DNA from: Reichenbachiella sp.
GTDB lineage: Bacteria; Bacteroidota; Bacteroidia; Cytophagales; Cyclobacteriaceae
Length of the DNA stretch: 64,000 nucleotides
Assembly: GCF_033344935.1 (NCBI RefSeq)
Contig: NZ_JAWPMM010000001.1
Location: forward strand, 2,714,001-2,778,000
Direction: 5' to 3'
How positions within the stretch are numbered: position 1 is the stretch's first letter; each line of letters starts with the position of its first letter. The notes beneath the pieces are model-generated. The model was not told the origin of the DNA. It worked only from the letters and a program-made list of their open reading frames with translations, and made no database searches. Position numbers and translations under genes: made by a program. Below, piece after piece: positions 10,395 to 30,241 of the stretch.

Positions 10395-11483
10395 ATGAAT
10401 AAAATCGATATTTTGATAGCTCTAAGCCTAATCATTGGGTTTTCGAGCTGTGATTCACACAAAGGTCATCATGAGCTGCAAAGCACATTTGAGGTGACAA
10501 GCCCGATTAAAAAGGATACTTCAGTTACAAAACATTACGTAAGTCAAATTCACTCTTCACAGCACATTGAATTGAGAGCCTTGGAAAGGGGCTATTTGGA
10601 AAAGATATATGTAGACGAAGGACAATTCGTAAAGAAAGGACAGTTGATGTTTCAGATTATGCCACGGTTGTATCAAGCAGAATTGCAACGTGCTCAAGCG
10701 GAAGTGCATTATGCTCAGATTGAGTATGAGAATACGAAGCAACTTGCTGATAAAAATGTAGTAGCACCCAACGAACTAGCATTGGCTAGCGCCAAATATG
10801 ACAAGGCAAAGGCAGAGTTGGCATTGGCACAAGTGCACCTGGACTTCACGCAGGTGCGAGCGCCCTTTGATGGCATCATGGATCATCTGCATGTAAGACT
10901 GGGAAGTTTGGTAGAAGAAGGTGAATTGCTCACAACCTTATCAGACAATCATGAAATGTGGGTTTATTTTAATGTGCCTGAGGCTGAGTACCTCGACTAT
11001 AAGGTGGAGCTAAGTCATGATAAAGAGCACCCCTTGAAAGTGAAGTTGATGATGGCTAATAATAAACTGTTTGAAAATGAAGGAGTGGTAAATACGATCG
11101 AAGCTGACTTCAATAATGAAACCGGAAATATTGCATTCCGTGCTACATTTTCAAATCCAAGAGGGTTACTACGACATGGTGAAACAGGCAATGTACTCGT
11201 AGAGGCTAAGCTGAAAGATGCACTGCTGATCCCTCAAAAGACGACTTATGAAATATTGGATAAAAAATATGTATTTGTGATAGACAAAGACCAAATGGTT
11301 AGGTCTCGGCAAATCAAGGTAGGAGCAGAGTTGCCGCACATCTATGAAGTAACCGATGGACTAAAAGAATCTGATAAAATCCTTTTGGAAGGTTTACGAA
11401 AAGTGAGAGAAGGTGATAAGGTCGCTATTGAGTATGTTGATCCCGCCACTGTATTGTCTCAGCTGGATTTATACTCAGAGTAA
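10395..11483 (+). CDS. RND efflux periplasmic adaptor lipoprotein
   Basis: This 362-residue protein is the membrane-fusion (AcrA/HlyD-type) part of a tripartite efflux system, bridging the pump at 11515 and the outer-membrane factor at 14748. A lipobox (IGFSSC, Cys about 19) shows it is a lipoprotein. After a short His-rich N-terminus come the first half of the biotinyl-lipoyl domain (LEKIYVDEGQFVKKGQLMFQI), an alpha-helical hairpin (about 90-145) and the second lipoyl half with the family signature VRAPFDGIMD. The beta-barrel and membrane-proximal domains fill residues about 185-345. No regulator gene is adjacent. Confidence 0.9.
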   Translation: MNKIDILIALSLIIGFSSCDSHKGHHELQSTFEVTSPIKKDTSVTKHYVSQIHSSQHIELRALERGYLEKIYVDEGQFVKKGQLMFQIMPRLYQAELQRAQAEVHYAQIEYENTKQLADKNVVAPNELALASAKYDKAKAELALAQVHLDFTQVRAPFDGIMDHLHVRLGSLVEEGELLTTLSDNHEMWVYFNVPEAEYLDYKVELSHDKEHPLKVKLMMANNKLFENEGVVNTIEADFNNETGNIAFRATFSNPRGLLRHGETGNVLVEAKLKDALLIPQKTTYEILDKKYVFVIDKDQMVRSRQIKVGAELPHIYEVTDGLKESDKILLEGLRKVREGDKVAIEYVDPATVLSQLDLYSE

Positions 11484-11514
11484 TTCCATTCTCCACTAAA
11501 AATATCATATAATC

Positions 11515-14500
11515 ATGTTTTTAAGCAGAATCATACGCAGACCGGTGTTGGCTATCGTCATATCCGTCGTCATTTTGTTTTTGGGTGGGCTGGCCATTAG
11601 GGTATTACCTATTTCTCAGTTTCCATCTATTGCACCTACTACCGTAAATCTTTTTATCGCCTATCCAGGTTCTAGTGCAGAGGTATTGGTGAATTCTACA
11701 CTCATCCCTTTAGAGCAAGCCATAAATGGCGTGCAAGGCATGCGCTACATATCGTCAGATGCAACCAGTGCTGGAGAAGCAACTATCAGAGTGATTTTTG
11801 AGCCGGGCACAGATCCAAATCAGGCGGTGATCAGGGTCAAAACACGGGTAGATCAGGTGATGCCATTATTGCCACCTTTGGTACAACGAGAAGGAGTAAT
11901 TATTTCGCCCATTCAGCCCAGTATGCTCATGTACGTGAACCTATACAGCGAGGATAAAAATGCTGATGAGAAATTTTTGTACAACTATGCGAATGTTAAA
12001 ATGATTCCTGAAATCCAGCGTATCACTGGGATAGCACGTGCTCAAATTTTGGGTAGTAGGCAATTTGCCATGCGAATTTGGTTGAAACCGGATCGAATGC
12101 GAGCCTATAAAATATCCGCCGAAGATGTGATGGACGCCATGCTCGAACAGAGTATAATTGGGAGACCGGGCAGACTCGGCAGAGCAGACGGAAAAGAAGC
12201 CCAATCACTCGAGTATGTCTTGACCTATCAAGGCAGGTATAATAAGCCAGAGCAATATGGAAATATCATTATTCGATCGAATGAAGAAGGTCAAAATATC
12301 CATTTGAAGGATATTGCTACTGTAGAATTAGGTAGTGAATTCTTCGATATTTATTCAAACTTGGATGGACTCCCATCTGCCTCAATTGTATTAAAGCAAA
12401 CCGTAGGAAGTAATGCTTCTCAGGTAATAGATGATGTAAAGGCGAAGTTGGATGAAATGAAAGGGGACTTTCCGCCGGGTATGGATTATAAAATTAGCTA
12501 TGATGTATCCAATTTTTTAGATGCTTCGATCGAACAAGTAGTGCATACGCTTAGGGATGCCTTTATTCTTGTGGCTCTCGTTGTCTTTGTATTCTTAGGT
12601 GACTGGCGGTCTACTTTGATTCCCATTATTGCTGTCCCAGTTTCGCTTATTGGGGCCTTTTTTGTTATGCTGACGTTTGGTTTGTCAATTAATCTCATCA
12701 CACTTTTTGCGCTCGTATTGGCTATTGGAATTGTGGTTGACGATGCGATTGTAGTAGTAGAAGCAGTACATGCGAAGATGCACGAAAAGAATCTGTCACC
12801 CTATTATGCGGTGAAAGAGGTGATGGGGGAGATCAGCGGAGCTATCATCGCTATTACTTTGGTTATGGTATCAGTATTTGTTCCTATAGCCTTTATGCCA
12901 GGGCCTGTTGGTACGTTCTATCGTCAGTTTTCCATTACCATGGCAAGTTCTATCATTTTATCGGCAGTAGTAGCCCTTACTTTGACTCCGGTTTTGTGCG
13001 CCATGTTGTTGAAAAACGCACATGGTAAACCTAAGAAACGCTCTTTGGTAAACAAGCTGTTGGATGGGTTCAATAGTGGATTTGATAAGGTAACCAATAA
13101 GTATGTGAAGTTATTGAAGGTTATTGTAAATCGAAGAATGGTGACCTTTGGCATTTTGGGAGCGTTTTGTGTGGGTATTTATTTTGAAAACCAAATTCTG
13201 CCAACGGGATTTATTCCTAACGAGGACCAGGGAACGATTTATGCCATCATACAGACTCCTCCAGGGGCCACCTTGGAACGCACCAATCAAATTGCCCACG
13301 AACTTCAGCGAATTTCTGAGAAAATTGATGGAATCGAGTCAGTTTCAGCACTAGCTGGTTATGAGATCATGACGGAAGGTCGCGGTTCAAATGCCGGTAC
13401 TTGCTTGATCAATCTTAAAAACTGGGGAGATCGTGAACATTCAGTTCATGAAATTATGGAAGTGTTAGAAGAAGAAACGAGAAACCTCGGAGCGATAATA
13501 GAATTCTTTGAACCGCCTGCCGTGCCTGGTTTTGGAACCTCTGGAGGATTTTCGATGCGAATGTTGGATAAGACCAGCTCCACAGACTATCAAGAATTTG
13601 ATAAAATCAATGGTAGTTTTATGGATGCCTTAAGAGCGCGTGAAGAGATAACAGGTCTGTTCACCTTTTTTGCAGCAAATTATCCTCAATATGAAATAGA
13701 GATTGACAATGAAGCTGCTATGCAAAAAGGAGTCTCTATTGATGCCGCCATGGAAAATCTAAACATTCTCATTGGAAGTACCTATGAGCAAGGTTTCATA
13801 CGGTTTGGCCGATTTTTCAAGGTGTATGTACAAGCTTCTCCAGAGTATCGCCGATATCCATCGGATTTGGATGGATACTTTGTGAAAAATGAGCATGGAG
13901 AAATGGTACCATATTCTTCGTTTATGAAATTGACCAAGCGTCAAGGACCGAATGAAATTACCAGGTTTAACTTGTACAACTCGGCTTCTATAAGAGGCTT
14001 ACCAGCCCCGGGGTTTACAACAGGAGATGCTATTGCAGCAATACGCGAAGTAGCTGCAGTTAATCTACCCCGCGGATACGACATTGCTTTTGAAGATTTG
14101 TCTTATGATGAATCACGCCGGGGAAATGAGGGGGTCTACATATTCATTATCGTCCTCATTTTTGTGTATTTGGTATTGGCGGCGCAGTATGAAAGTTTTC
14201 TACTGCCGTTGGCTGTGATACTCTCATTGCCTGTAGGGGTGTTTGGGTCGTTCTTAATGCTAAAAGCCATGGGACTGGCAAATGATGTATATGCACAGGT
14301 TGGTTTGATTATGTTGGTTGGGTTGCTTGGTAAGAATGCGGTACTAATCGTGGAATTTGCTGTACAGAAGCATCAACAAGGCCTGTCAGTATTCGACGCT
14401 GCCATCGAAGGTGCCAGAGTGCGGTTTAGGCCTATTTTGATGACTTCATTTGCTTTTATCGCCGGTTTAATTCCTTTGGTGATCTCTCATGGAGCTGGTG

Positions 14501-14751
14501 CTGTAGGTAATCAAACGATTGGTTCATCCGCTATGGGTGGTATGTTGATTGGAACTTTCTTCGGAGTGATCATCATACCAGGTCTGTACTATGTATTCGA
14601 CACTTTGGCCGAAGGGCGCAATTTAATCAAAGGCGAAGAGCATGAGCCGCTGACCGAGGAGTATGTCCATACGATGGAAGATCGGGACAAGATGCTCAAG
14701 CAGATACATCAAGAGAAGTTAGGTGCAAACCAAGAAGATAAAAGCAAATGA
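11515..14751 (+). CDS. RND efflux pump, AcrB/HAE1-type permease
   Basis: The 1078-residue inner-membrane pump exports hydrophobic compounds using the proton gradient. It has the usual twelve helices in two repeats with two large periplasmic loops. The proton-relay residues are in place: Asp409-Asp410 in GIVVDDAIVVVE (helix 4) and Lys940 in GLLGKNAVLIVEF (helix 10). The first residues MFLSRIIRRPVLA are typical of the family. A charged C-terminal tail (about 1040-1078) is cytoplasmic. Its TGA overlaps the ATG of the outer-membrane factor (ATGA at 14748), so translation of the two is coupled. The substrate class (drugs or detergents, not metals) is inferred from HAE1-type similarity. Confidence 0.93.
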   Translation: MFLSRIIRRPVLAIVISVVILFLGGLAIRVLPISQFPSIAPTTVNLFIAYPGSSAEVLVNSTLIPLEQAINGVQGMRYISSDATSAGEATIRVIFEPGTDPNQAVIRVKTRVDQVMPLLPPLVQREGVIISPIQPSMLMYVNLYSEDKNADEKFLYNYANVKMIPEIQRITGIARAQILGSRQFAMRIWLKPDRMRAYKISAEDVMDAMLEQSIIGRPGRLGRADGKEAQSLEYVLTYQGRYNKPEQYGNIIIRSNEEGQNIHLKDIATVELGSEFFDIYSNLDGLPSASIVLKQTVGSNASQVIDDVKAKLDEMKGDFPPGMDYKISYDVSNFLDASIEQVVHTLRDAFILVALVVFVFLGDWRSTLIPIIAVPVSLIGAFFVMLTFGLSINLITLFALVLAIGIVVDDAIVVVEAVHAKMHEKNLSPYYAVKEVMGEISGAIIAITLVMVSVFVPIAFMPGPVGTFYRQFSITMASSIILSAVVALTLTPVLCAMLLKNAHGKPKKRSLVNKLLDGFNSGFDKVTNKYVKLLKVIVNRRMVTFGILGAFCVGIYFENQILPTGFIPNEDQGTIYAIIQTPPGATLERTNQIAHELQRISEKIDGIESVSALAGYEIMTEGRGSNAGTCLINLKNWGDREHSVHEIMEVLEEETRNLGAIIEFFEPPAVPGFGTSGGFSMRMLDKTSSTDYQEFDKINGSFMDALRAREEITGLFTFFAANYPQYEIEIDNEAAMQKGVSIDAAMENLNILIGSTYEQGFIRFGRFFKVYVQASPEYRRYPSDLDGYFVKNEHGEMVPYSSFMKLTKRQGPNEITRFNLYNSASIRGLPAPGFTTGDAIAAIREVAAVNLPRGYDIAFEDLSYDESRRGNEGVYIFIIVLIFVYLVLAAQYESFLLPLAVILSLPVGVFGSFLMLKAMGLANDVYAQVGLIMLVGLLGKNAVLIVEFAVQKHQQGLSVFDAAIEGARVRFRPILMTSFAFIAGLIPLVISHGAGAVGNQTIGSSAMGGMLIGTFFGVIIIPGLYYVFDTLAEGRNLIKGEEHEPLTEEYVHTMEDRDKMLKQIHQEKLGANQEDKSK

Positions 14752-16187
14752 GACGCATAGATATAAAAATTGTAAATAGAACGCTGGTGATCGTATTATC
14801 GGTGTTGGCCATTCATGCCTGCGCACCAAAACTCACCGTGATGGATGCTGATCCGAATATACCCGAGCAGTTTGATCAGCCTCAGGATTCGACGAACACA
14901 GCCGATGTGCAGTGGCGAAATTATTTTACTGATCCAAACCTGGTGGCTTTGATCGATACCGCACTGGCCAACAACCAGGAGCTAAATATTTTCATGCAAG
15001 AAATTCAAATTGCGAGAAATGAAGTTCGAGAAAAGAAGGGCGAGCTGCTACCTACGGTAAATGTGGGGGCTGGTGCAGGCATCGATAAAGTGGGCAGATA
15101 TACGAGAAACGGTGCGCTAGAGGCCACTACTGATATTGAGCCTGGCAAGGAGTTTCCTGAGCCTTTGCCTGATTTTGTAGTTGGTGCTGCTACTACGTGG
15201 GAGGTAGATATTTGGCGCAAGTTGCGCAATGCCAAGAAATCGGCTTTCACTAGATATTTAGCGAGTGTTGAGGGTCGAAATTTTATGGTGACCAATTTGA
15301 TAGCTGAGATTTCCAATTCGTACTACGAACTATTGGCACTCGACAATCAATTAGCCTTGGTGCAGCAAAATATCCAGATTCAATCGGATGCCCTTGAGAT
15401 CGTAAGATTACAGAAGCAAGCGTCGCGAGTTACAGAATTGGCCGTACGGAGGTTTGAAGCTCAAGTATTGGATACGAGGAGTCTACAATATGACATCCAA
15501 CAGAAAATCGTAGAAACGGAAAATGAAATCAACTTTTTGCTTGGTCGATATCCACAGCCGATTCCTCGGAATGCTGCCTTGTTTGAAAGTTTCGTACCAG
15601 ATGTAGTGAAGACGGGCGTGCCATCTCAATTGTTGGAAAACAGACCTGATATCAGACAGGCTGGATTAGACCTGGAGGCTGCCAAGCTGGATATCCAAGT
15701 GGCTAAGGCCAGATTTTATCCTTCACTAGGAATCACAGCGGGTGTAGGATACCAAGCGTTCAATCCAAGTCATTTGCTATCTACGCCTGAGTCATTGGCT
15801 TTTTCACTCACGGGTGATTTAATAGCTCCATTGGTTAATCGTAATGCCATCAAGGCCATGTATTATAGTGCCAATTCGGCTCAGATTCAAGCTGTATACA
15901 ACTATGAGCGTACGATTTTAAACGCGTACATAGAAGTAGCTAATCTGATGTCCAAATCTAGCAATCTTCAGAGTAGTTATGATTTGAGGGCACAGCAGGT
16001 AGAGGCATTGAATCAATCTATTGAGATTTCCAATTTCCTCTTTAGGTCAGCACGGGCGGACTATATGGAAGTGTTGCTTACCCAGCGTGAAGCGCTGGAC
16101 TCCCGGTTTGATTTGATAGAAACCAAGATGGAGCAGTTACATACCTGGATCAATATCTACAAGGCACTAGGTGGCGGATGGGAATAA
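14748..16187 (+). CDS. TolC/NodT-type outer-membrane efflux lipoprotein
   Basis: This 479-residue protein is the outer-membrane channel of the tripartite pump. The signal peptide ends in a lipobox-like AIHAC (Cys about 26). Two OEP repeats form the long helical barrel: the first with NQELNIFMQEIQIARNEVREKKGELLP, the second with LLENRPDIRQAGLDLEAAKLDIQVAKARFYPSLGI, the diagnostic RPDI motif of the NodT/OprM group. It overlaps the pump gene by four bases and is followed by a hairpin that probably ends the operon. Confidence 0.92.
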   Translation: MRRIDIKIVNRTLVIVLSVLAIHACAPKLTVMDADPNIPEQFDQPQDSTNTADVQWRNYFTDPNLVALIDTALANNQELNIFMQEIQIARNEVREKKGELLPTVNVGAGAGIDKVGRYTRNGALEATTDIEPGKEFPEPLPDFVVGAATTWEVDIWRKLRNAKKSAFTRYLASVEGRNFMVTNLIAEISNSYYELLALDNQLALVQQNIQIQSDALEIVRLQKQASRVTELAVRRFEAQVLDTRSLQYDIQQKIVETENEINFLLGRYPQPIPRNAALFESFVPDVVKTGVPSQLLENRPDIRQAGLDLEAAKLDIQVAKARFYPSLGITAGVGYQAFNPSHLLSTPESLAFSLTGDLIAPLVNRNAIKAMYYSANSAQIQAVYNYERTILNAYIEVANLMSKSSNLQSSYDLRAQQVEALNQSIEISNFLFRSARADYMEVLLTQREALDSRFDLIETKMEQLHTWINIYKALGGGWE

Positions 16188-19976: not shown

Positions 19977-22900
19977 TCACATTTGAAGTATATTTTTGTA
20001 ATTTTCTTTAAACTCAATAAAACATTCCTGAATCGTGTCCAGTTGCGGTTTTAAATTGGTGGTATCAGCTGTTTTAAGTTGCAATTCCAACTTAATAACA
20101 TGATTGGCCAATTTTTCAATACCAAGTGTACCAGCACTACCTTTTAAGGTATGCAGTTCCTTTCTGATTTCCTCTATCTGATCGTCAGCAAAATGAATCA
20201 TGCAATTCTTAATCAATTCATTTGCTTCTGATTCGAAATCAGATAGCACAGATTCCAAAAGTTCAGATCCACCAAATTTGGATAGTTGCTCTAATGTTTC
20301 TTTGTTGATCAGCAAATCAGTGCCTTCATCTTTTTGTTCTTCGACAGCTACATTAGATGTATCGTACTGAATGTACTCTTTTACCTTTTCAATGATAGTT
20401 ACTGCCCGTATGGGTTTAGCCACATAATCATCCAGACCTTGTGACATAAACTTGTTGCGATCATCCTCCATGGAATAAGCCGTCATAGCGACAATAGGAG
20501 GTAGGTTCTTTATTCCCAATGCTTTGATGTTTTGAGTTGTCTGCACACCATCCATTTTAGGCATTTGAATATCCATAAAGACCAAATCCAATTCGTTGTT
20601 TTTAACAACCTCAATGGCCTCAAGTCCACTAGAAGCTAAATGTACGTGACAGCCGGATTTTTCAAGAATTTGACTAGCCACTGTACGATTTACTTTATTA
20701 TCATCTACTACTAAAATTCTTGGAACAACTGTTGTGAACTCTTTGGTGATTTCCATCGGTTCATCTGCATCAGAAGAGTTATCAGGTTCTTCTCCCTCAG
20801 GAATTTCTCCATCGAAGGTAAACCAAAACGTACTTCCTAAACCAGGGGTAGACACTACGCCAATGTCTCCACCCATCGATCTTACGAGTTCCTTTGAAAT
20901 GGCAAGACCTAGACCAGTACCTCCATAAACCTTAGTACTTGAATTATCGAGTTGATTGAAGTTGATGAACAGGTTCTTAATCTGTTCTTTAGGTATGCCA
21001 ATTCCTTCATCTTTGACTTGTACTTTAAATGTGCATTTGTTGTTTTCTTTTTTCTTGAGCACTAAGCTGATATCAATGATTCCTTTGCCATCAGAAAACT
21101 TAATGGCATTGCTAATGAGGTTGGAAAGTACTTGAAGTAGTCTAGTTTCATCAAGCAGGATGACCGGAGGAACCTTGCTATCTAGATTATAATTCAGATA
21201 GATATTGTTGGCATAGGCTTCTTTAGAAAATAAGTCATATAATCGTTGGAACGTACCAATTAGCTTTAGCGGGCGCTGTTTGAGTTCCATTTTCCCTGCC
21301 TCAATTTTTGATAGGTCTAGGATGTCATTTAGAATATCCATTAATGTCTCAGAGGACTTTTTAATGGTCTTGACGTAGTCTGTTTGCTCCGTATCTAAAT
21401 TAGTACTACCAATGAGATCAATCATACCTATGATTCCATTCATCGGGGTTCTAATTTCGTGACTCATATTGGCCAGGAATCTTTCTTTGATTGCTAAGGA
21501 TTTTTCAGCAAATTCTTTCGCTTTTGATAGTTCTTCGTAGGCCCGCTTGATTTCAGAAATATCACGAGCAACACCTTCAAAGCCTACGGCTTGCTTATTT
21601 CTAAATAGAACCCTCACGTTGCATAAGAAGTCGATTTTTTCTCCTTCTTCTGTATGAAAAGAAGCTTCTATGTTTTGTGATTTATGTTCTTTGAGTAAGG
21701 TCTTTAGAATCGAGTCGGCTGATTCCTCAGAAGTAAAGAAGTGAGTGATGGTTTTACCCAATACCTCCTCGGGGTGAAGCCCGAGAGATTCCGTAGCGGA
21801 TGGGCTTATCATCAATAATTTGCCATTGAGATCACATCTGAAATAAATATCCTGAATGGACTCAAATATTTCTCTAAATTTCGCTTCACTTTCAGAAAGA
21901 GCGAGTTCAGAACTTTTCTTTTCGGTAATATCATGTGAAATGACAGATACTTCTTCAATAGATCCATCCTCTTTCACAATAGGGTTAATGAAAACTTCAG
22001 ACCAATGCGTTTGGTTCTTTCCAAGTTTAACTTCATTTTGAAAGTTCAGTGCAGTTCCCTTAAATGCCTGATTGTATTTCGACTCCCAAAATTTGTTGAC
22101 TGAATCGGACAGCTTTTTTCTTTCCTTTGAAAACTCTTTTCCTATGACTGTAGTTACATCACAACTTTCTTTCATCCAATCTGAATAATTGCTGTTGAAT
22201 GATGTGAGGTTGTAGTCATCATCGACCGACCAAATCTGATGACTACTGCTTTCAAAAATGGCTTTTAGCCTGGCTGCCTGATCAACTATTTTTTCTTCAT
22301 TGATTTTTCTCTCTATCGCGAGCGAAATTTGACTGGCAATAAAATAAAGCAGTTCTAAATCTTTCGCACCAAAATCAGAACGATCATCATATGAATGTGT
22401 ACTAAGCAGTCCAACAGGGGAGTTGCCAACAGTAATTTGCACACCGAGCCATACTTTTGGATATACCCCTTTGAATGACTTTTTATTTTCTTTTACCTGT
22501 TCCTGAATTTGCTCTTCATAAATGATGAGCTGCCTGGAATTGCCAATCATCTGTTCGGCGATCAAATCATTGATTGTTTTTTGATTTTGAAGCTCCATAG
22601 AGTCCTTGAACTCAGAACGAACATAAGGAGATGAGGCATTGGACTTGTCAGTCAGATTCAGTTCAATCGAAAGGTTTTTAATATTTAATAAACCTTGCAG
22701 CTCATCAAATAGTTTGGAATATAGTATTTCCAGTTGCGGTCCTTCAATATTGAAGTCTGCTATTTTATAATATAGACTCTGAGCTTTTTCGGCTCGAATT
22801 CTTTCAGTAATATCATAGAATATCCCCCGAAACTGAGCATTCCCATTAATGTCGAATGAACAGTTTACCCGACCGGAAACGAAGATGTTTTTACCCATAT

Positions 22901-24338
22901 CCGATACGAACACCGTTTCGAACCTGTCGATGGCTTCTCCTTTGATGATTTTATCTAAGTTTTCGACCGTCTGTTGCCAGTTTTTAGGGTGTACAAGATC
23001 TTTGAACCTTATACTTTGAAGTTTATCTCGATAGCCTAATTTTTCAACCCAGGCCTGATTCACAAATTGGAAGACTCCCTCGTGATCAAAAGTCTGAATC
23101 AAATCATAAGAGTTATCAAAAAGCTCTTTGAGTTGATCGTTACTTTTTTCAAGTTGTTTCTTTACTCTGTTTTGAGCGGTGACATTTTCGCCGATCAGAT
23201 TGATCCCTGATACTTCATTGAAGCTGTCTTTGAGAAGGATGACATTAAACCTAACATAAATATCCTGTTTCTCTTTCGTGAAGAATTTGCCAGCAAGAGT
23301 TCCATTGTACTTGCCATCTGTTGCTATTTGACCATATTTTTTCTGATTGATCTTGGTTGAAGCATCAGGAATGAAGATGTCGAATAAATTGGCCCCAACG
23401 ATATCAGATTTTTTCAGTCCAATGGTATCGAGCAATTTGTTGTTGCAAAAGGTGATACTTCCTTCTGTATTTGTCGTCATGGCCACTACCTCAGATTCAT
23501 CGAGTGACTCCTGGATTTTTAATTCGGATTCAGAAATGGCTCTTTCTCTGGTGGCTTCAAGCTCTAGTGTCTTTCGTTCGGTAGTGTCTATGGCTGCAGC
23601 CGCATAGCCAATAAACTTCTTGTTTTTAGAATATCGTGGGGTACCAGATTCTAGCAACCATCTGTATTCCCCACGAGCATCTTTTATTCTAAAAGAATAC
23701 TCGTAATTTTTTTTCTTTGAAACCGAAAAATCTACTGTAGAACTATAGGCAGCTAAGTCATCGGGATGGATTTTCTCATTCCAAGTACTATAGGACTTTT
23801 CATCTTTGCTACCGAGTAGATCAAACCAGCCTTTGCTAAAATAGGTGACACGATTCTTCTCATCGGTAATTTTGATAAAAACAGGAGCACTGTCGGTAAT
23901 CGTATTGGTAGAAGATACCAGGTTCTCTGTGTTTTCTGCTAGGTCAAAATGCACCAGAAACCTTTCGTCTTTTACCTTACTAATAGATGCGATAGTGGCA
24001 AAAGACTGACCATTTCTATCTAAAAATTCAAATTCGAATGTATCTGATTTTCCTCTTCGAGCGCTTTTGAAATTATCTTCCCAGGTTTTACTGCTTTTTT
24101 CTCCACTTACCTGAAAAATGGGCATAAGCTCATCAATCGTTTTGTCAGAAAAATCACTAGCAAATACAAATTTCTCTTCAGCCTTAGGACTGAATTCAAT
24201 AACATTTCCTTCTTCAAAAATGACAAAATAACTAGCGGAAGACTCAAGTAAAAGGTCGTACTTATTGTGCAACTCTTTCAACTCACCCTTGAGCTTTTCT
24301 ACTTCATTCAACAGTTCAGTCCTGCCTTGATTGAGCAT
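19977..24338 (-). CDS. giant hybrid sensor histidine kinase with PAS, GAF, receiver and HPt domains
   Basis: This 1453-residue soluble kinase carries all steps of a phosphorelay. In order I see an N-terminal PAS-like region (about 30-135), three PAS domains (about 140-510), a GAF domain (about 530-672), two PAS domains (about 684-930), HisKA with His960 in NMSHEIRTPMNG, HATPase (about 1035-1172; LISNAIKFSDG, DEGIGIP, GTGLGLAIS), a receiver with Asp1256 in LVFMDIQMPKMDG, and an HPt domain with His1396 in LHTLKGSAGTLG. There is no membrane helix, so it senses cytoplasmic signals such as redox state or small ligands. The downstream receiver at 19532 is a likely target. Confidence 0.92.
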   Translation of the reverse strand: MLNQGRTELLNEVEKLKGELKELHNKYDLLLESSASYFVIFEEGNVIEFSPKAEEKFVFASDFSDKTIDELMPIFQVSGEKSSKTWEDNFKSARRGKSDTFEFEFLDRNGQSFATIASISKVKDERFLVHFDLAENTENLVSSTNTITDSAPVFIKITDEKNRVTYFSKGWFDLLGSKDEKSYSTWNEKIHPDDLAAYSSTVDFSVSKKKNYEYSFRIKDARGEYRWLLESGTPRYSKNKKFIGYAAAAIDTTERKTLELEATRERAISESELKIQESLDESEVVAMTTNTEGSITFCNNKLLDTIGLKKSDIVGANLFDIFIPDASTKINQKKYGQIATDGKYNGTLAGKFFTKEKQDIYVRFNVILLKDSFNEVSGINLIGENVTAQNRVKKQLEKSNDQLKELFDNSYDLIQTFDHEGVFQFVNQAWVEKLGYRDKLQSIRFKDLVHPKNWQQTVENLDKIIKGEAIDRFETVFVSDMGKNIFVSGRVNCSFDINGNAQFRGIFYDITERIRAEKAQSLYYKIADFNIEGPQLEILYSKLFDELQGLLNIKNLSIELNLTDKSNASSPYVRSEFKDSMELQNQKTINDLIAEQMIGNSRQLIIYEEQIQEQVKENKKSFKGVYPKVWLGVQITVGNSPVGLLSTHSYDDRSDFGAKDLELLYFIASQISLAIERKINEEKIVDQAARLKAIFESSSHQIWSVDDDYNLTSFNSNYSDWMKESCDVTTVIGKEFSKERKKLSDSVNKFWESKYNQAFKGTALNFQNEVKLGKNQTHWSEVFINPIVKEDGSIEEVSVISHDITEKKSSELALSESEAKFREIFESIQDIYFRCDLNGKLLMISPSATESLGLHPEEVLGKTITHFFTSEESADSILKTLLKEHKSQNIEASFHTEEGEKIDFLCNVRVLFRNKQAVGFEGVARDISEIKRAYEELSKAKEFAEKSLAIKERFLANMSHEIRTPMNGIIGMIDLIGSTNLDTEQTDYVKTIKKSSETLMDILNDILDLSKIEAGKMELKQRPLKLIGTFQRLYDLFSKEAYANNIYLNYNLDSKVPPVILLDETRLLQVLSNLISNAIKFSDGKGIIDISLVLKKKENNKCTFKVQVKDEGIGIPKEQIKNLFINFNQLDNSSTKVYGGTGLGLAISKELVRSMGGDIGVVSTPGLGSTFWFTFDGEIPEGEEPDNSSDADEPMEITKEFTTVVPRILVVDDNKVNRTVASQILEKSGCHVHLASSGLEAIEVVKNNELDLVFMDIQMPKMDGVQTTQNIKALGIKNLPPIVAMTAYSMEDDRNKFMSQGLDDYVAKPIRAVTIIEKVKEYIQYDTSNVAVEEQKDEGTDLLINKETLEQLSKFGGSELLESVLSDFESEANELIKNCMIHFADDQIEEIRKELHTLKGSAGTLGIEKLANHVIKLELQLKTADTTNLKPQLDTIQECFIEFKENYKNILQM

Positions 24339-24452: not shown

Positions 24453-24962
24453 TTAACCCAATTCAACTAGAATTTTTTTGCCTCTATTTACTACGCCTGG
24501 AGTTGCATATTGAATCAAGTCTTCAATAACGATTTTAAGCTCAATTTTAAGCTCTGGGTAGATTTTGGTAAGATTATGAGCAATGGTCATGGAAAATGCC
24601 TTAACGGCTGTAGTTTCTTTAGCAGAGGTCAAATATTCGAAGCACTTATCCAGTAAGAGGCCTTGAGATTCTTCTGGAATTTCCTGCTTTTGCAAAAGTC
24701 TAACGGTATTCCTTTTGATCGCGACTTTAGGGTCTTCTCTAAGATTTTCAATCATTTGATTGATATATGGTTCAAGCAGTTTTGGATGTCTGTCTACACA
24801 ATGACTTACTGCATGTGCAGCTCTTTGGGATACTTTATACTCCTTATGAAAAAACAACTCCATTAACTTCTCGAACCGTTGAGTGTCTTTGCCAATATAC
24901 CCAGCGATCGACTGAGCGTTCGCTTTGCTATGTGCTTTGGCTATTTCTTTTTGAAGATCCAT
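24453..24962 (-). CDS. HEAT-repeat protein in a two-component operon
   Basis: The 169-residue product is all helical, with HEAT-like helix pairs: FEKLMELFFHKEYKVSQRAAHAVSHCV, LEPYINQMIENL, VAIKRNTVRLLQ and KAFSMTIAHNLTKIYPEL. HEAT repeats are protein-binding scaffolds; no catalytic motif is visible. The start is ATG 24962, two bases after the stop of the kinase gene (a TTG at 24968 would overlap it). It is thus the last gene of the NtrC-NtrY-HEAT operon and may tune that pathway, an inference from context alone. Confidence 0.75.
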   Translation of the reverse strand: MDLQKEIAKAHSKANAQSIAGYIGKDTQRFEKLMELFFHKEYKVSQRAAHAVSHCVDRHPKLLEPYINQMIENLREDPKVAIKRNTVRLLQKQEIPEESQGLLLDKCFEYLTSAKETTAVKAFSMTIAHNLTKIYPELKIELKIVIEDLIQYATPGVVNRGKKILVELG

Positions 24963-24964
24963 AA

Positions 24965-26266
24965 TCAAAATTTGTAGCTTACCGGAAAGAGCAAGACAAT
25001 TTGTGTATACTCACCCGGTTTGGAATCAATTTCGATTCTTCCACGATGCAAATTGAGAATTTGTTGCACGAGGCTTAAACCAATTCCTGAGCCACTATTT
25101 TTGGTAGTAAAAAACGGGATCATAGATTTGGCCAGCGTTTCTTTGTCCATGCCACAGCCGGTATCTTTAAGCCCCAATCTCATCCATGTTCTATCTGTGG
25201 AGTAGGTGATAGTCAGGCTTTTTATTTTTGAATCTTGCATGGATTGTATGCTGTTTGTCAATAGGTTAACCAATATTTGCTCTAGCAAAATTGGATCAGC
25301 AACAATCTCTGAACTTTCATAGGACTCGGTTACTTTTGTTTCTTCGAGCTGGTTTTGAAACAGATGAAGGATGCCTGCAATCGTCTCTTTGATTTTGAAT
25401 GTTTCTAATTTAGGCTCTGGAATTTTAACCAACTTTCTATAATCTTCCATGAAATTTAAGAGTCCTTCTGATCTATCTTTTATGGTTTTAAGACTCAATT
25501 CGATATCTTCCAAACCTGACTGTTTTGTTTTATTTAGGATGAGTAATGTAGTTTCCGATAGCGATGTAATAGGAGTGAGAGAATTGATGATTTCGTGGGC
25601 TAAGATTCTTATCAACTTCTGCCAGGATTCAATTTCTTTACTTTCCAACGAACTGGAGATGTCCTTAAAAGTGAAAATAGTTTGTGGCTTGTCCAGAAGC
25701 TTAAAAACAGATTTATTAACCAGCAATTCTACTTTCTGGCCCTCATCATTTCGTCCCTCAATGATTTGCGAATCGTCGATATCACCCAAGATTGAAACCA
25801 AGCCTTGATTGTTTTCGAATTTGTAATCCGACCTCATTTTTCGAGCCACCTTATTAATTAGGGTAACCTTTCTGTTTTCATCAAAAGACATTAGACCTGT
25901 TTCTATATTGTCTATTAACTCCTGAATAAATAAATATTGAGCTTCGTATTTGGTTTCCTTCTTTTTATAAAGATCCAGTGTGCTTTGAAATCTTTCGTAG
26001 AGTAATCCAAAAGATTCATTATCTGCCTTCGGGAATTTGGCGGTATAGTCTGTGTCTCTTAGTGCTAGAATAAACTTGGCTAATTCATTATTTGTTTTGT
26101 TTACAAAGCGGACCAAATCGATAGTTTGAAAAAGTACAAGAACGCAGAGAAAAATGATTGTATAGATCAGGTCTCCACGATTGTGTAGGTAAACAATCCC
26201 AATGAGATTAATCAGAATCAGAATAATCCTGATAATGATAAATACTGAAAACCTATTGTAAGCCAT
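24965..26266 (-). CDS. NtrY-like membrane sensor histidine kinase
   Basis: The 433-residue kinase has two N-terminal membrane helices (about 7-28 and 33-51) with almost no periplasmic loop, a HAMP/linker helix, a PAS-like domain (about 110-210), HisKA with His224 in ILAHEIINSLTPI, and HATPase (about 320-430) with LVNLLTNSIQSM, DTGCGMD and GSGIGLSLVQQI. The AHEI(I/K)N(S/P)LTPI box is the NtrY/NtrB type that pairs with sigma-54 activators. Its first 14 bases overlap the NtrC-type gene at 26253, so that regulator is its partner. The input is probably membrane-state or cytoplasmic. Confidence 0.9.
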   Translation of the reverse strand: MAYNRFSVFIIIRIILILINLIGIVYLHNRGDLIYTIIFLCVLVLFQTIDLVRFVNKTNNELAKFILALRDTDYTAKFPKADNESFGLLYERFQSTLDLYKKKETKYEAQYLFIQELIDNIETGLMSFDENRKVTLINKVARKMRSDYKFENNQGLVSILGDIDDSQIIEGRNDEGQKVELLVNKSVFKLLDKPQTIFTFKDISSSLESKEIESWQKLIRILAHEIINSLTPITSLSETTLLILNKTKQSGLEDIELSLKTIKDRSEGLLNFMEDYRKLVKIPEPKLETFKIKETIAGILHLFQNQLEETKVTESYESSEIVADPILLEQILVNLLTNSIQSMQDSKIKSLTITYSTDRTWMRLGLKDTGCGMDKETLAKSMIPFFTTKNSGSGIGLSLVQQILNLHRGRIEIDSKPGEYTQIVLLFPVSYKF

Positions 26267-27641
26267 ACTTTTCTAGTCTTCTGTGCAAGGCTAATCTATC
26301 GATGCCCAGTTCTTTTGCCGCATGGGTTACATTTCCATTGTGAAGTGCCATGGCCTTTTGTATGTAGGAGATTTCCATTTGTTTTAGATTCAGAGAGGTC
26401 GATTCGGACAGTTGTTTTTCACCAGTACGTATATTTTGAAAATCAGAAGCCAGCAGTTGATCTGTTTCCGCAAGTATCACTGCCCTTTCGGTGGCATGCT
26501 GAAGTTCTCTAATGTTTCCCGGCCAATTCATCCTTTTTAGTTTTTCAAACTCTTCTTCGGATATCGAAAGGTTGTGTTTGGCATACTTGCTTTTAAAGGA
26601 GGATAAATAGTAGGTGACAAGTAAAGGTATATCTGAAAGTCTGTCTGTCAAGTTGGGCATCATCACTTCTACTGTATTGATACGATATAAAAGATCCTGA
26701 CGGAAACTACCTTGTCCGACCATTTCATACAGTGGCATGTTCGTAGCGCATATCAACCTTACATCAATATCAATTTCTTGGTTCGAGCCCAGGCGGCTAA
26801 ACCTTTTATTTTGCAAAACAGACAATAGTTTGGCCTGAGCTGGTAGTGATAGGTTGCCGATTTCATCAAGGAAAAGTGTACCGCGATGTGCCATCTCCAA
26901 GCGACCTTTTTTTTGTTGTGAAGCGTCGGTAAATGCCCCTTTTTCATGACCAAATAGTTCCGACTCTATCAATGTTTCGCTTAGTGCACCCATGTCAATG
27001 GTGATCATCGGCCGTTCATTTCGACCCGAATTCTGATGAATAAACTTCGCAGCCAACCCTTTACCCGTGCCATTTTCCCCCAGCAAGAGTACATTGGCTT
27101 CTGAGGTAGCTACTTTTTCCATGGTTGCTTTGGCTTTCAAAAACGAAGGCGCACCGCCAATAAAGCCTTCAATTTCTCTAGCCTGTTCTTCTGATTGATA
27201 TTGTCTTGAGTTTTTTAATTCCTCAAGTTGCCTGAGATTTTGAGCTAATTTGTTTGCTGTTTCTACAGTGGTAAGAAATTTTTCGTTTTTCCATGGTTTG
27301 GTTACGAAATCTATGGCACCATTTTTTAGTGCCTTTACTGCCATGTCTATATCTCCATAGGCAGTCATAAAAATCACTTGCGTCTGGGGTTGAGTATCTA
27401 ATATCTGCTGCAAATACTTAAATCCATCTTCACCATCATTTTTCCCTTTTTGAAAATTCATATCTAAAAGCACAATACTGATTTCATGTTTTTTAAACTG
27501 ACTCTGAATTTTGTCTGGATTAAGCTCGACGTAGACCTTCTTGTAGTATTGCTTTAAAAAAAGCTGTGCAGAGGTTAAAATCCCGGCATCGTCGTCTACA
27601 ATAAGTATATTTCCATCTTGGAAAGTGGGCAATGATTCCAT
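26253..27641 (-). CDS. sigma-54-dependent response regulator, NtrC family
   Basis: This 462-residue activator has a receiver (about 10-130, Asp60 in IVLLDMNF), an AAA+ domain (about 160-390) and a Fis-type helix-turn-helix (about 425-462, NVTHAAKELGIDRLALHRRLEKYG). Walker A is GENGTGKG with Lys194 and Walker B is GTLFLDEIG. The sigma-54-contacting loop reads GAFTDA (235-240) rather than the classic GAFTGA. It is the first gene of an operon with its kinase and a HEAT protein. It faces a divergent permease gene that carries a sigma-54 promoter and inverted repeats in the shared 170-base gap, its probable target. Confidence 0.92.
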   Translation of the reverse strand: MESLPTFQDGNILIVDDDAGILTSAQLFLKQYYKKVYVELNPDKIQSQFKKHEISIVLLDMNFQKGKNDGEDGFKYLQQILDTQPQTQVIFMTAYGDIDMAVKALKNGAIDFVTKPWKNEKFLTTVETANKLAQNLRQLEELKNSRQYQSEEQAREIEGFIGGAPSFLKAKATMEKVATSEANVLLLGENGTGKGLAAKFIHQNSGRNERPMITIDMGALSETLIESELFGHEKGAFTDASQQKKGRLEMAHRGTLFLDEIGNLSLPAQAKLLSVLQNKRFSRLGSNQEIDIDVRLICATNMPLYEMVGQGSFRQDLLYRINTVEVMMPNLTDRLSDIPLLVTYYLSSFKSKYAKHNLSISEEEFEKLKRMNWPGNIRELQHATERAVILAETDQLLASDFQNIRTGEKQLSESTSLNLKQMEISYIQKAMALHNGNVTHAAKELGIDRLALHRRLEKYGLQ

Positions 27642-27669
27642 GTTTTCAAAACTAGGGATAAAGGTTCGG

Positions 27670-27700
27670 AATCAAACAATATACTGTTTGATTTCAAACA
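27670..27700 (+). promoter_or_regulatory. clustered inverted repeats, probable activator-binding (enhancer) site
   Basis: AATCAAACA at 27670-27678 and TGTTTGATT at 27685-27693 form a perfect nine-base inverted repeat with a six-base spacer. The second arm also pairs with TCAAACA at 27694-27700. These three half-sites lie about 65-95 bases upstream of the sigma-54 promoter, the usual distance for an NtrC-type binding site. The Fis-type HTH of the adjacent regulator is the likely reader. Confidence 0.65.
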
Positions 27701-27764
27701 GTTGAGTCTCTTTTTGACATGAGTAAAAAATGTACTTATCAGTAAATCAGCGAGTTATAAAATA

Positions 27765-27780
27765 TGGCATCCAGGTTGTA
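27765..27780 (+). promoter_or_regulatory. sigma-54 (-24/-12) promoter of the permease gene
   Basis: TGGCATCCAGGTTGTA matches the TGGCAC-N5-TTGCA pattern with exact spacing between the GG and the downstream TTG; the deviations are T for C at the end of the -24 box and T for C in the -12 box. It ends 31 bases before the ATG at 27812 and shares a gap with a sigma-54 activator gene. Confidence 0.7.
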
Positions 27781-27811
27781 ATTGGAAGGACAACTCTAAA
27801 TACCAATAACC

Positions 27812-30241
27812 ATGTTTAAAAATTACTTCAAAACCATTTACAGAAACATAAAGAGAGAAAAACTCTTCACCTTACTTAACCTGTCAGGACTCGGTTTGGG
27901 TCTAGGCTGTATTCTTGTCATCTTCAAAATCATTTCCTACGAACTAAGTTTTGATAAGCATCATTCCAATTACGATAATATCTATCGTGCAGTGCGAGAA
28001 ACAAGAATCAGTAGTGGAATTCGATATAATGAGGGTGTTCCGCATCCAGTCGGAGAAGGACTTAGAGCGGATTATCCGGATTTGGTGATTGCAAGGACGC
28101 ACTACGAACCCTATCATCAAGTGGCCATTAAAAGAGAAAACGGGGAATACGATCGATATCTTGATGATGAGGGATTAGTCTTTGCTGAATCTTCGGTATT
28201 TCAAATTTTTGATTTTGAGTTTATCGAAGGCAATCCTCTTAATTGCTTAGATGAACCTAATTCGATGGTGATATCCAGGTCTCAAGCGAAAAAATTCTTT
28301 GGTTTGAATGATGATAACATTAATCAGGCTATAGGGAAACAAGTCTTGCTGTCAAACACACAAGACCTGATTGTTAAGGGGCTTGTTGAGGACTACAAAG
28401 AAACTACCAATATTCCCTTCAATGTCTTGATTCACTACGAAAACTTAGATGGGTTAAATCCATACTATCGAAAAGGTAATTGGAACAGTAATAGTTCAGC
28501 TACAAATTGTTACATCATGGTCCCTGACAATTTTAACGTAGAGAATTTTGAAGAAAGTCTGCATGGCTTTGTTGAGAAATACCATGGGGAAGGGGCTTCT
28601 GTCGATTTGAAATACAATATGCAGCCCATGAGTGATATTCACTTTAGTGATAAATATGATAACTATAATGAGCGAACCATTTCGATGGAATTCATTCAAG
28701 CACTTGGTGTTATTGGAATATTTCTGATCCTAACTGCAGCAATCAATTTTATTAACCTGACAACTGCACAATCAATTAAACGGTCTAAGGAAATTGGCAT
28801 AAGAAAAACGCTGGGAGGAAAGTCTTATCAGCTAGCCATTCAGTTCTTGTCTGAGACATTGTTAATCACAATAGTGTCTTCGTTTATAGGTCTGATTTTC
28901 GCCGAAGTACTATTGATTTATTTGGAAGACATTCTTGGGTATAAACTTTGGATCAACCTATTCGAAGAGCCAACCACTTTACTTTTTCTTACCATCAATA
29001 TTCTAATTATTGGTTTGTTGGCGGGAATCTACCCAGCATTGTCTATGTCTAAGCTCAATCCGATTGCAGCGTTGCGAACCAAATTCAACCTCAAAGAGGG
29101 CAGTGGCTTTTTATCGTTCAGAAGAGTTTTAGTCATTGTGCAATTTATCATTACCCAGGTTCTTATTATTGGGACTTTGGTGGTGCAACATCAAATGGAC
29201 TTCTTTTTAAGCAAAGACTTGGGTTTTGAAAAAGACAATATTGTTCTGTCTGATCTTCCCGGTCAAAATGAAGAGGATCTTAATCGATTGAAAACTAACC
29301 TACTAAGCCACCCTGAGATAAAAGGGGTAACGTTTACGCTCAGCGCACCTATGGGTACGTCAAATTCAAACTCTCATATCAATCACCATAGTATTCCAGA
29401 AGGAGAGAATGTGCGCGTCAATTTCAAATTTGGAGACAAAGATTTTCTTGATGTTTATGGGTTAAAACTTATTGCTGGGGAGTGGGTGGATAAAGCAGAT
29501 ACCAGCCGAATATTGGTAAATAGAAAATTGGCTGAAGCATTAGGCTTCGATAATCCGGAAGAAGTAATCGGTGAGAAGATCAGTGGGTGGTATCGTGACA
29601 TGCAGGTAGTCGGTGTTGTAGAGAATTTTCATACTCATTCTTTGCAGTCAGACTTTGTCTATTGCATTTTTATGAATAATCCACGCATGTTTTATGAAAT
29701 GGCTGTGAAGATTACCTCTGCAGGTCAAACCATAGATGAAGTCAACCCCACCTTATCTATCATACAAAAAGAATGGGAGAGTGTCTATAGCAAGGATATC
29801 TATGATTTTACTTTTTTTGATGAGCAGGTCGCTGACTGGTACGAAGAAGAAAAGAATATGGGAAGTATGTTCAAACTCTTTTCGATCATCGTCATTTTTA
29901 TAGGATGCTTGGGATTGTATGGTCTTATTTCATATATAGCAAATAAAAAGACCAAAGAAATTGGAGTCCGGAAAGTTCTTGGAGCAAGCACATTGAATGT
30001 ACTCAATATATTCTCTAGAGAAATGATACTTCTGGTTTTCATTTCCTTTCTCATTGCCGGACCCATTAGCTATGTGGTGATGAGCGATTGGCTGGACAAC
30101 TTTGCCTACAAGATTGAATTGTCTTTTTTCATATTTCTTTTAGCCTTATTGATCAGTTTTGGCATAGCTGTTATTACTGCAGGTTACAAAGCTATATTAG
30201 CCGCTAGGGCTAATCCTGTGTTGTCACTGAGAGATGAATGA
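27812..30241 (+). CDS. FtsX/MacB-type ABC transporter permease
   Basis: The 809-residue inner-membrane protein has the two-unit layout common in Bacteroidota: an N-terminal helix after MFKNYFKTIYRNIKREK, a large periplasmic MacB-PCD domain (about 50-285), three helices of an FtsX core (about 290-410, with INLTTAQSIKRSKEIGIRKTLGG), then a second helix, periplasmic domain and FtsX core (about 690-800, with NKKTKEIGVRKVLGAS). Such permeases need a separate ATPase, which is not in this window. MacB-like systems transmit force to periplasmic substrates such as lipoproteins or peptides. Its promoter is probably sigma-54-dependent and controlled by the divergent NtrC-type gene. Confidence 0.9.
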   Translation: MFKNYFKTIYRNIKREKLFTLLNLSGLGLGLGCILVIFKIISYELSFDKHHSNYDNIYRAVRETRISSGIRYNEGVPHPVGEGLRADYPDLVIARTHYEPYHQVAIKRENGEYDRYLDDEGLVFAESSVFQIFDFEFIEGNPLNCLDEPNSMVISRSQAKKFFGLNDDNINQAIGKQVLLSNTQDLIVKGLVEDYKETTNIPFNVLIHYENLDGLNPYYRKGNWNSNSSATNCYIMVPDNFNVENFEESLHGFVEKYHGEGASVDLKYNMQPMSDIHFSDKYDNYNERTISMEFIQALGVIGIFLILTAAINFINLTTAQSIKRSKEIGIRKTLGGKSYQLAIQFLSETLLITIVSSFIGLIFAEVLLIYLEDILGYKLWINLFEEPTTLLFLTINILIIGLLAGIYPALSMSKLNPIAALRTKFNLKEGSGFLSFRRVLVIVQFIITQVLIIGTLVVQHQMDFFLSKDLGFEKDNIVLSDLPGQNEEDLNRLKTNLLSHPEIKGVTFTLSAPMGTSNSNSHINHHSIPEGENVRVNFKFGDKDFLDVYGLKLIAGEWVDKADTSRILVNRKLAEALGFDNPEEVIGEKISGWYRDMQVVGVVENFHTHSLQSDFVYCIFMNNPRMFYEMAVKITSAGQTIDEVNPTLSIIQKEWESVYSKDIYDFTFFDEQVADWYEEEKNMGSMFKLFSIIVIFIGCLGLYGLISYIANKKTKEIGVRKVLGASTLNVLNIFSREMILLVFISFLIAGPISYVVMSDWLDNFAYKIELSFFIFLLALLISFGIAVITAGYKAILAARANPVLSLRDE

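Follow-up and report, generated by a model that had tools for sequence, protein, structure and literature searches.

What controls the transcription of an FtsX/MacB-type permease that stands divergently to an NtrC-type regulator was analysed in a stretch of 64,000 nucleotides (the window) of Reichenbachiella sp., from a genome that is a single contig of 4.88 Mb. A sensor histidine kinase and a response regulator on the minus strand are followed, across an ATG-to-ATG gap of 170 bases (27642–27811), by the permease on the plus strand (Table 1). A preliminary description had read this gap as a sigma-54 control region with upstream sites for the adjacent regulator, serving the permease, and comparison with related loci supported this reading. 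The gap most likely serves a sigma-54 two-component switch as its control region, at an estimated probability of about 0.86; the switch would drive the permease via the adjacent NtrC-type regulator. The circuit also includes the co-encoded histidine kinase, which had been omitted.

Table 1. Genes, putative operators and promoter elements of the locus, in window positions
Feature	Position	Strand	Basis
Sensor histidine kinase, 433 aa	24965..26266	-	HATPase_c (Pfam), hydropathy, motifs
NtrC-type response regulator, 462 aa	26253..27641	-	Pfam Response_reg, Sigma54_activat, HTH_8
Operator site 1 (distal), GGTTCGgaatCAAACA	27663..27678	+	11/12 matches to TGTYYR-N4-YRRACA; same place in R. faecimaris
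Operator site 2 (proximal), TGTTTGatttCAAACA, perfect palindrome	27685..27700	+	12/12 matches to TGTYYR-N4-YRRACA
-24 element TGGCAT	27765..27770	+	Sequence read; kept in R. faecimaris
-12 element TTGTA	27776..27780	+	Sequence read; kept in R. faecimaris
Predicted transcript start	27788..27793	+	About 12 bases after the -12 G, from the -24/-12 spacing
FtsX/MacB-type permease, 809 aa	27812..30241	+	Pfam FtsX and MacB_PCD, two stretches each

The kinase was matched by Pfam HATPase_c, with HisKA absent among its listed Pfam matches, and carries the H-box HEIIN at residue 224. Hydropathy placed two N-terminal transmembrane segments at residues 7–25 and 34–52, with a very short loop between them, and almost no periplasmic part is predicted; because of these two predicted segments and the very short outer loop, the kinase probably senses inside the membrane or via a partner. 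Kinase and regulator genes share a 14-base overlap. The regulator combines REC, AAA+ sigma-54 activation and Fis-type HTH domains in a single protein, all over the Pfam cut-offs, confirming the description of the divergent gene as a sigma-54 activator with a Fis HTH. Its REC domain has an LLDM motif starting at residue 58 (Asp at about residue 60), its HTH helix is IDRLALHRRLEKYG, and its sigma-54 contact loop, at residue 235, is GAFTDA, a variant of the strict GAFTGA form. GAFTDA, GSFTDA or GAYTDA was found in 80 of the 81 regulators of the family (the window's included), and surveys demanding GAFTGA would miss such a family; GAFTDA is one of the variants that would keep activity, according to the portion of PMC4641369 available. 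The genome gave one match for rpoN and nine for sigma-54 activators, five of them strong (the window's included) and four weak. Three further features of the window were recorded around these genes: a 171-aa protein (24453–24968, minus strand) directly after the kinase with a 4-base overlap and a weak Adaptin_N match below the cut-off, a 1453-aa hybrid kinase with several PAS domains, a receiver and Hpt (19977–24338, minus strand) downstream of the kinase-regulator pair, and a complete RND efflux operon of HlyD-type adaptor, AcrB-type pump and TolC-type channel (10395–16187, plus strand).

For comparison, 80 named loci were fetched, the best of 179 relatives of the regulator found, plus 29 from other genomes of the same family; counts over 81 loci comprise the 80 named loci and the window's own copy, and since the compared loci are related, these counts are not independent events. 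The nearest named relative in the regulator search was Reichenbachiella faecimaris, whose regulator (79% identical) was the sole close ortholog found and whose permease ortholog lies in the same place (85% identical). The R. faecimaris gap aligned throughout, with both operators, TGGCAT and TTGTA kept, and with differences at 3 of the 5 bases separating the -24 and -12 elements, at the palindrome centre and in much of the spacer. Across eight same-genus genomes, the window's own included (presence thresholds E<=1e-160 for the regulator and E<=1e-150 for the permease), both genes were present in two and neither in five, and one had only a 45% partial permease. A divergent permease of the window permease's family was present in 65 of the 80 named loci; among the 15 loci without one, 6 had the full 6 kb upstream and 9 had 134–3628 bases.

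The promoter match TGGCATCCAGGTTGTA at 27765–27780, with the exact spacing TGGCAT-N5-TTG, was read directly from the sequence, as the preliminary description had it, and is not significant alone: TGGCACN5TTGCW with two mismatches gave 29 matches in the window vs a mean of 28.5 in shuffles, which is chance level. In the genome, the looser TGGCAYN5TTGNH gave 24 forward and 38 reverse matches vs 22 and 13 for the reversed pattern. While TGG and TTG stand at exact spacing, the -12 dinucleotide is GT instead of the strict sigma-54 GC, and position 6 is T instead of C. A sigma-54-like site scoring at least 0.9 and facing the divergent gene was found in 57 of the 81 regulator loci, the other 24 having no promoter site at this threshold (a few contigs end nearby), and exact TGGCAY-N5-TTG occurred toward the divergent gene in 55, and on the other strand in 7, of the 80 loci with 200 or more bases of upstream DNA. 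TGGCA was present at -24 in 57/57 of these family sites, which were selected for TGGCA, and TTG in 55/57 of the same selected sites, with a following base that is mostly G and is T in the window. The -12 dinucleotide was GG in 43, GT in 6, GA in 5 and GC in 3 of the 57, strict GC thus being rare. The family -12 element is mostly TTGGC, not TTGCA/T (base 15 G in 43/57, base 16 C in 40/57), possibly a lineage-specific form of the sigma-54 promoter.

Upstream of this site, the half-sites noted in the preliminary description were present (TCAAACA at 27672–27678, TGTTTGA at 27685–27691 and TCAAACA at 27694–27700, 65–93 bases upstream of TGG), giving a perfect 18-bp palindrome, CTGTTTGATTTCAAACAG, at 27684–27701 and a spaced repeat, TCAAACA-N6-TGTTTGA, spanning 27672–27691. 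Their arrangement as two overlapping inverted repeats was rejected, since the positions across relatives fit two tandem 16-bp palindromes, starting 102 and 80 bases upstream of TGG; the outermost half-site is then the right arm of the distal operator, whose degenerate left arm, GGTTCG, is identical in R. faecimaris. The two palindromes, 22 bp apart, have the form expected of paired upstream activator sites. The exact 18-bp palindrome occurs once in the 4.88-Mb genome, the next best site having 2 mismatches, and CTGTTTGA-NN-TCAAACAG with up to 3 mismatches was found at 53 places (one exact, one with 2 mismatches) vs 29 for a reversed-pattern control. A genome search for the same half-sites near other sigma-54 promoters, as had been proposed, found the whole operator pair (up to 3 mismatches) in the window and nowhere else (control 0), and a related type of site ahead of sigma-54-like promoters at four other permeases.

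The pairing recurred across the family. Pairs of 16-bp sites 20–22 bp apart with a summed score of at least 20/24 were found in 40 of the 57 loci with a promoter site, where dinucleotide-shuffled versions of the same DNA would give 0.12; at a summed score of at least 21/24 the count was 37 of 57, vs 0.00 expected. Offsets from TGG, taken from 42 pairs with a spacing of 18–24 allowed, clustered at -89/-69 (13), -88/-68 (9), -102/-80 (4) and -103/-81 (3). The motif TGTYYR-N4-YRRACA was written after viewing the palindromes of some loci, to which its fit is partly by construction, and pairing and fixed offset are more independent evidence than the fit. Roseivirga loci have 17-bp operator variants, about TGTATYRAAAACAAACR, at the same two places; these fail the 16-bp test and were counted among the 17 of 57 scoring below 20. 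Taken alone, the -24/-12 site is at chance level, but the comparison supports it, through both its conservation in R. faecimaris and the paired palindromes of the family.

Alternatively, the palindromes could serve mainly for autoregulation of the regulator, the permease being transcribed from a housekeeping promoter and the -24/-12 match being coincidental. Such a reading would fit the chance-level score of the match and the short distance of the operator sites from the regulator's ATG (only 22–59 bases), but it would not account for operator offsets that are fixed relative to TGG in many loci (-102/-80, -89/-69), or for TGGCAT and TTGTA blocks kept in R. faecimaris while the spacer changes. 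A generic sigma-70 scan of 27600–27850, with a model that does not represent Bacteroidota promoters, was also not above shuffles (2 found vs a mean of 1.4), and we consider this alternative improbable. Under the sigma-54 reading, binding of the regulator probably affects its own promoter as well, because the sites lie this close upstream of its start codon.

Assignment of the sites to the adjacent regulator was examined through its recognition helix, which is DRLALHR in both Reichenbachiella and DRLALYR in the nine Roseivirga-group loci, the remaining regulators having mostly TRSSLYR, TRASLYR, TRAALYR or TRTALYR. At the second base of the right half-site, regulators with TRSSL/TRAAL helices had G in 65 of 66 arms, and the 10 DRLAL loci with a promoter had A in 20/20 arms, a count read by eye in which one site of L049 was re-registered by one base and an eleventh DRLAL locus (L053), with no site at the promoter threshold, was left uncounted. 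With the tally filter (score of at least 28), which removed 7 of these 10 loci as well as part of the TRTAL loci, A stood in 6/6 of the DRLAL arms left. TRTAL regulators were mixed (6 A and 4 G among those passing the filter), which blurs the correlation, and a rule that Asp in the helix specifies A in the half-site was rejected, since TRTAL regulators have A or G. Among 9 listed of 26 TRSSL rows, L079 shows the single A found with a TRSSL helix, its site pair differing from that of the other scan. Rows of the helix/operator tally share kinship, and the Fisher value overstates the case; in a tree of 82 regulators the D-type helix needs two changes, with the placement of the window regulator unsure owing to long branches, and a single origin of this helix could still apply. 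On this evidence the operator bases track the recognition helix and so link the window regulator to the gap sites. Outside Pseudomonadota, where sigma-54 regulation is less explored according to the portion of PMC12316311 available, such co-variation makes it possible to match activators with their targets.

The same comparison bears on whether the palindromes belong to another activator, for example the paralog at G000:C1:1099427, with the adjacent regulator acting elsewhere. The window sites have A where TRSSL/TRAAL operators have G and the paralog's helix is TRASL, the window regulator has its helix and its operator in common with its R. faecimaris ortholog, and the operator pair, unique in the genome, adjoins the window regulator. 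The five strong sigma-54 activators of the genome and the sites of the same general form at other permeases would speak for another activator, but we consider this assignment very unlikely. That the palindrome, with its 8-bp arms, acts in RNA as a terminator or hairpin of the regulator transcript is hardly credible: a terminator-like match was found on the minus strand at 27702–27683 (1 vs a shuffle mean of 0.1), but the palindrome lies upstream of the regulator's start codon, the T-run is broken, and the arms are kept as half-sites at a fixed promoter distance in many loci with varied sequence.

NtrC is phosphorylated, binds tandem sites cooperatively, loops to the promoter and drives ATP-dependent opening of the sigma-54 closed complex. 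In the sigma-54 switch proposed here, the membrane-embedded kinase would phosphorylate the receiver aspartate of the regulator, whose dimers would bind, on nearly the same helix face, the two tandem palindromes, centred about 120 and 98 bases before the predicted start. Bound dimers would assemble and loop to RNA polymerase-sigma-54 at the -24/-12 site, where the GAFTDA loops would remodel sigma-54, and the permease would be transcribed from about 27790.

The permease contains two MacB_PCD/FtsX repeats and no ATPase domain (Pfam). An ABC ATPase search, with the ATPase from a relative's operon as query, gave 20 genome matches at E<=1e-20, none of them within the window, in agreement with the preliminary description, and the permease probably works with an ATPase encoded elsewhere. 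With domains that are FtsX and MacB_PCD only, it is not a MacB-type ATPase-permease fusion; its score against the ADOP model (TIGR03434), with nearly the full length aligned, was 242.5 bits vs a cut-off of 622.3; and the lack of an ATPase match in the window sets it apart from BceAB-type modules, which have an adjacent ABC ATPase gene. Full-length copies of the permease number 36 in the genome, counting the window's own, which amounts to a large expansion of the FtsX/MacB type. An envelope-stress or efflux role is a guess from the resemblance to MacB.

A candidate source of the missing ATPase is an unlinked HlyD-ABC ATPase-TolC operon at C1:4301148-4304727 (4.30 Mb), which has TGGCACTCTTCTTGGC upstream and operator-like sites at -102 and -80 (11/12 and 10/12) in which the deciding base is G. 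Among the ATPases of the genome, the one in this operon is most similar (74%) to that of the relative's operon in L099, and no regulator or permease was seen in 12 kb around it. The preliminary description had also proposed a self-contained circuit, which is doubtful: there is no local ATPase, and the best candidate has its own sigma-54-like promoter and another type of site.

Other permeases of the genome were searched for the same arrangement. Sigma-54-like sites were seen 38–47 bases before the ATG of four of them (L161:6409, L160:6768, L159:8683 and L162 from 7140), and a TGTYYR-N4-YRRACA-like palindrome lies upstream of each of these sites. Requiring a sigma-54-like site of at least 0.9 and a palindrome of at least 10/12 at the right distance, 5 of the 36 permeases qualified (the window's, L141, L142, L146 and L148) vs 0 of 119 control genes drawn from the stretches fetched by then. 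The thresholds were set post hoc, once the first cases had been seen, these cases also prompted the fetching of some stretches, and for two of the 36 the upstream stretch was counted from where the match begins, one or two codons within the gene. Among the four other qualifying permeases, TGG is replaced by CGG in two and TTG by TAG in a third; the palindromes by which the four qualified all carry G as the deciding base, where the window has A, and L146 (the same as L159) also has a weaker 9/12 match with CAAACA at -63. Exact TGTYCR-N4-YGRACA was found at 2 places in the genome vs 4 in the control, so the motif is not enriched alone; one place is before the L142 permease and the other (1450237) at the start of an unrelated ORF, with no sigma-54 site seen in 150 bases on either side. 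The paralogous regulator at C1:1099427 (helix TRASL) is the natural candidate for driving the four other permeases and the HlyD-ATPase-TolC operon; the transporter expected beside it was not seen in 18 kb around. A tentative and rather doubtful extension is a distributed MacAB-TolC-like exporter, in which the one sigma-54-driven operon at 4.30 Mb would energise several permeases that are encoded at separate sites, each under a sigma-54 promoter of its own, and the window regulator and its operator would have diverged together (DRLAL helix, CAAACA arms), placing one permease on a private signal insulated from the paralog that drives the rest. Permeases of the FtsX/MacB type that lack a nearby ATPase can occur in large numbers, and a conserved promoter-operator-regulator unit readable from sequence offers a way to learn when some of these genes are expressed.

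Among known systems, NtrC/AtoC/ZraR-type activators share with this locus the REC, AAA+ and Fis HTH domains, the adjacent kinase, the paired upstream palindromes and the -24/-12 promoter, whereas the window has GAFTDA for GAFTGA and an orphan permease as target. The 25 listed of 85 NCBIfam models matching the regulator were all below their cut-offs (PEP_resp_reg 386 of 502.6, AtoC 342 of 714, ZraR 295 of 760). In Bacteroidota and Ignavibacteriota, kinase-regulator loci that face a divergent HlyD-ATPase-permease operon (for example L077, L099, L092 and L124) have the same regulator family, promoter form and paired operators, but their first divergent genes include HlyD and the ATPase (Pfam matched HlyD in L099 and L124 and the ATPase in L099, the other ATPases being assigned by motif), whereas in the window, L047, L048, L051 and L053 the divergent stretch begins with the permease and showed no ATPase. 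BceRS-BceAB of Firmicutes resembles the window in having a kinase with two transmembrane segments and almost no outer domain beside an FtsX-family permease; it differs in that it is not known to have a sigma-54 or NtrC-type regulator, in its permease architecture, and in the adjacent ATPase gene that the window lacks.

The closest published account retrieved is a computational study (PMC12316311, PLoS One 2025) which, in the portion available, reports COG0577 permeases as enriched among predicted sigma-54 targets in Bacteroidia, among other classes, and counts the FtsX-like permease family as sigma-54-regulated, writing of a regulatory axis that had not been recognised before. In a search covering mostly open-access literature, this was the one paper found on sigma-54 and FtsX-like permeases in Bacteroidota, and the paired operator architecture was not found among the papers listed; neither "palindrom" nor "upstream activat" occurs in the main text of PMC12316311, as available. 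That FtsX-like permeases of Bacteroidia are under sigma-54 control was already predicted there, to judge from that portion, and the locus shares with those permeases a sigma-54 promoter before an FtsX/MacB-type permease in Bacteroidota. That study, in the same portion, gives enrichment at the level of classes, whereas the window is an instance resolved down to its own promoter, activator, operators and orthologs.
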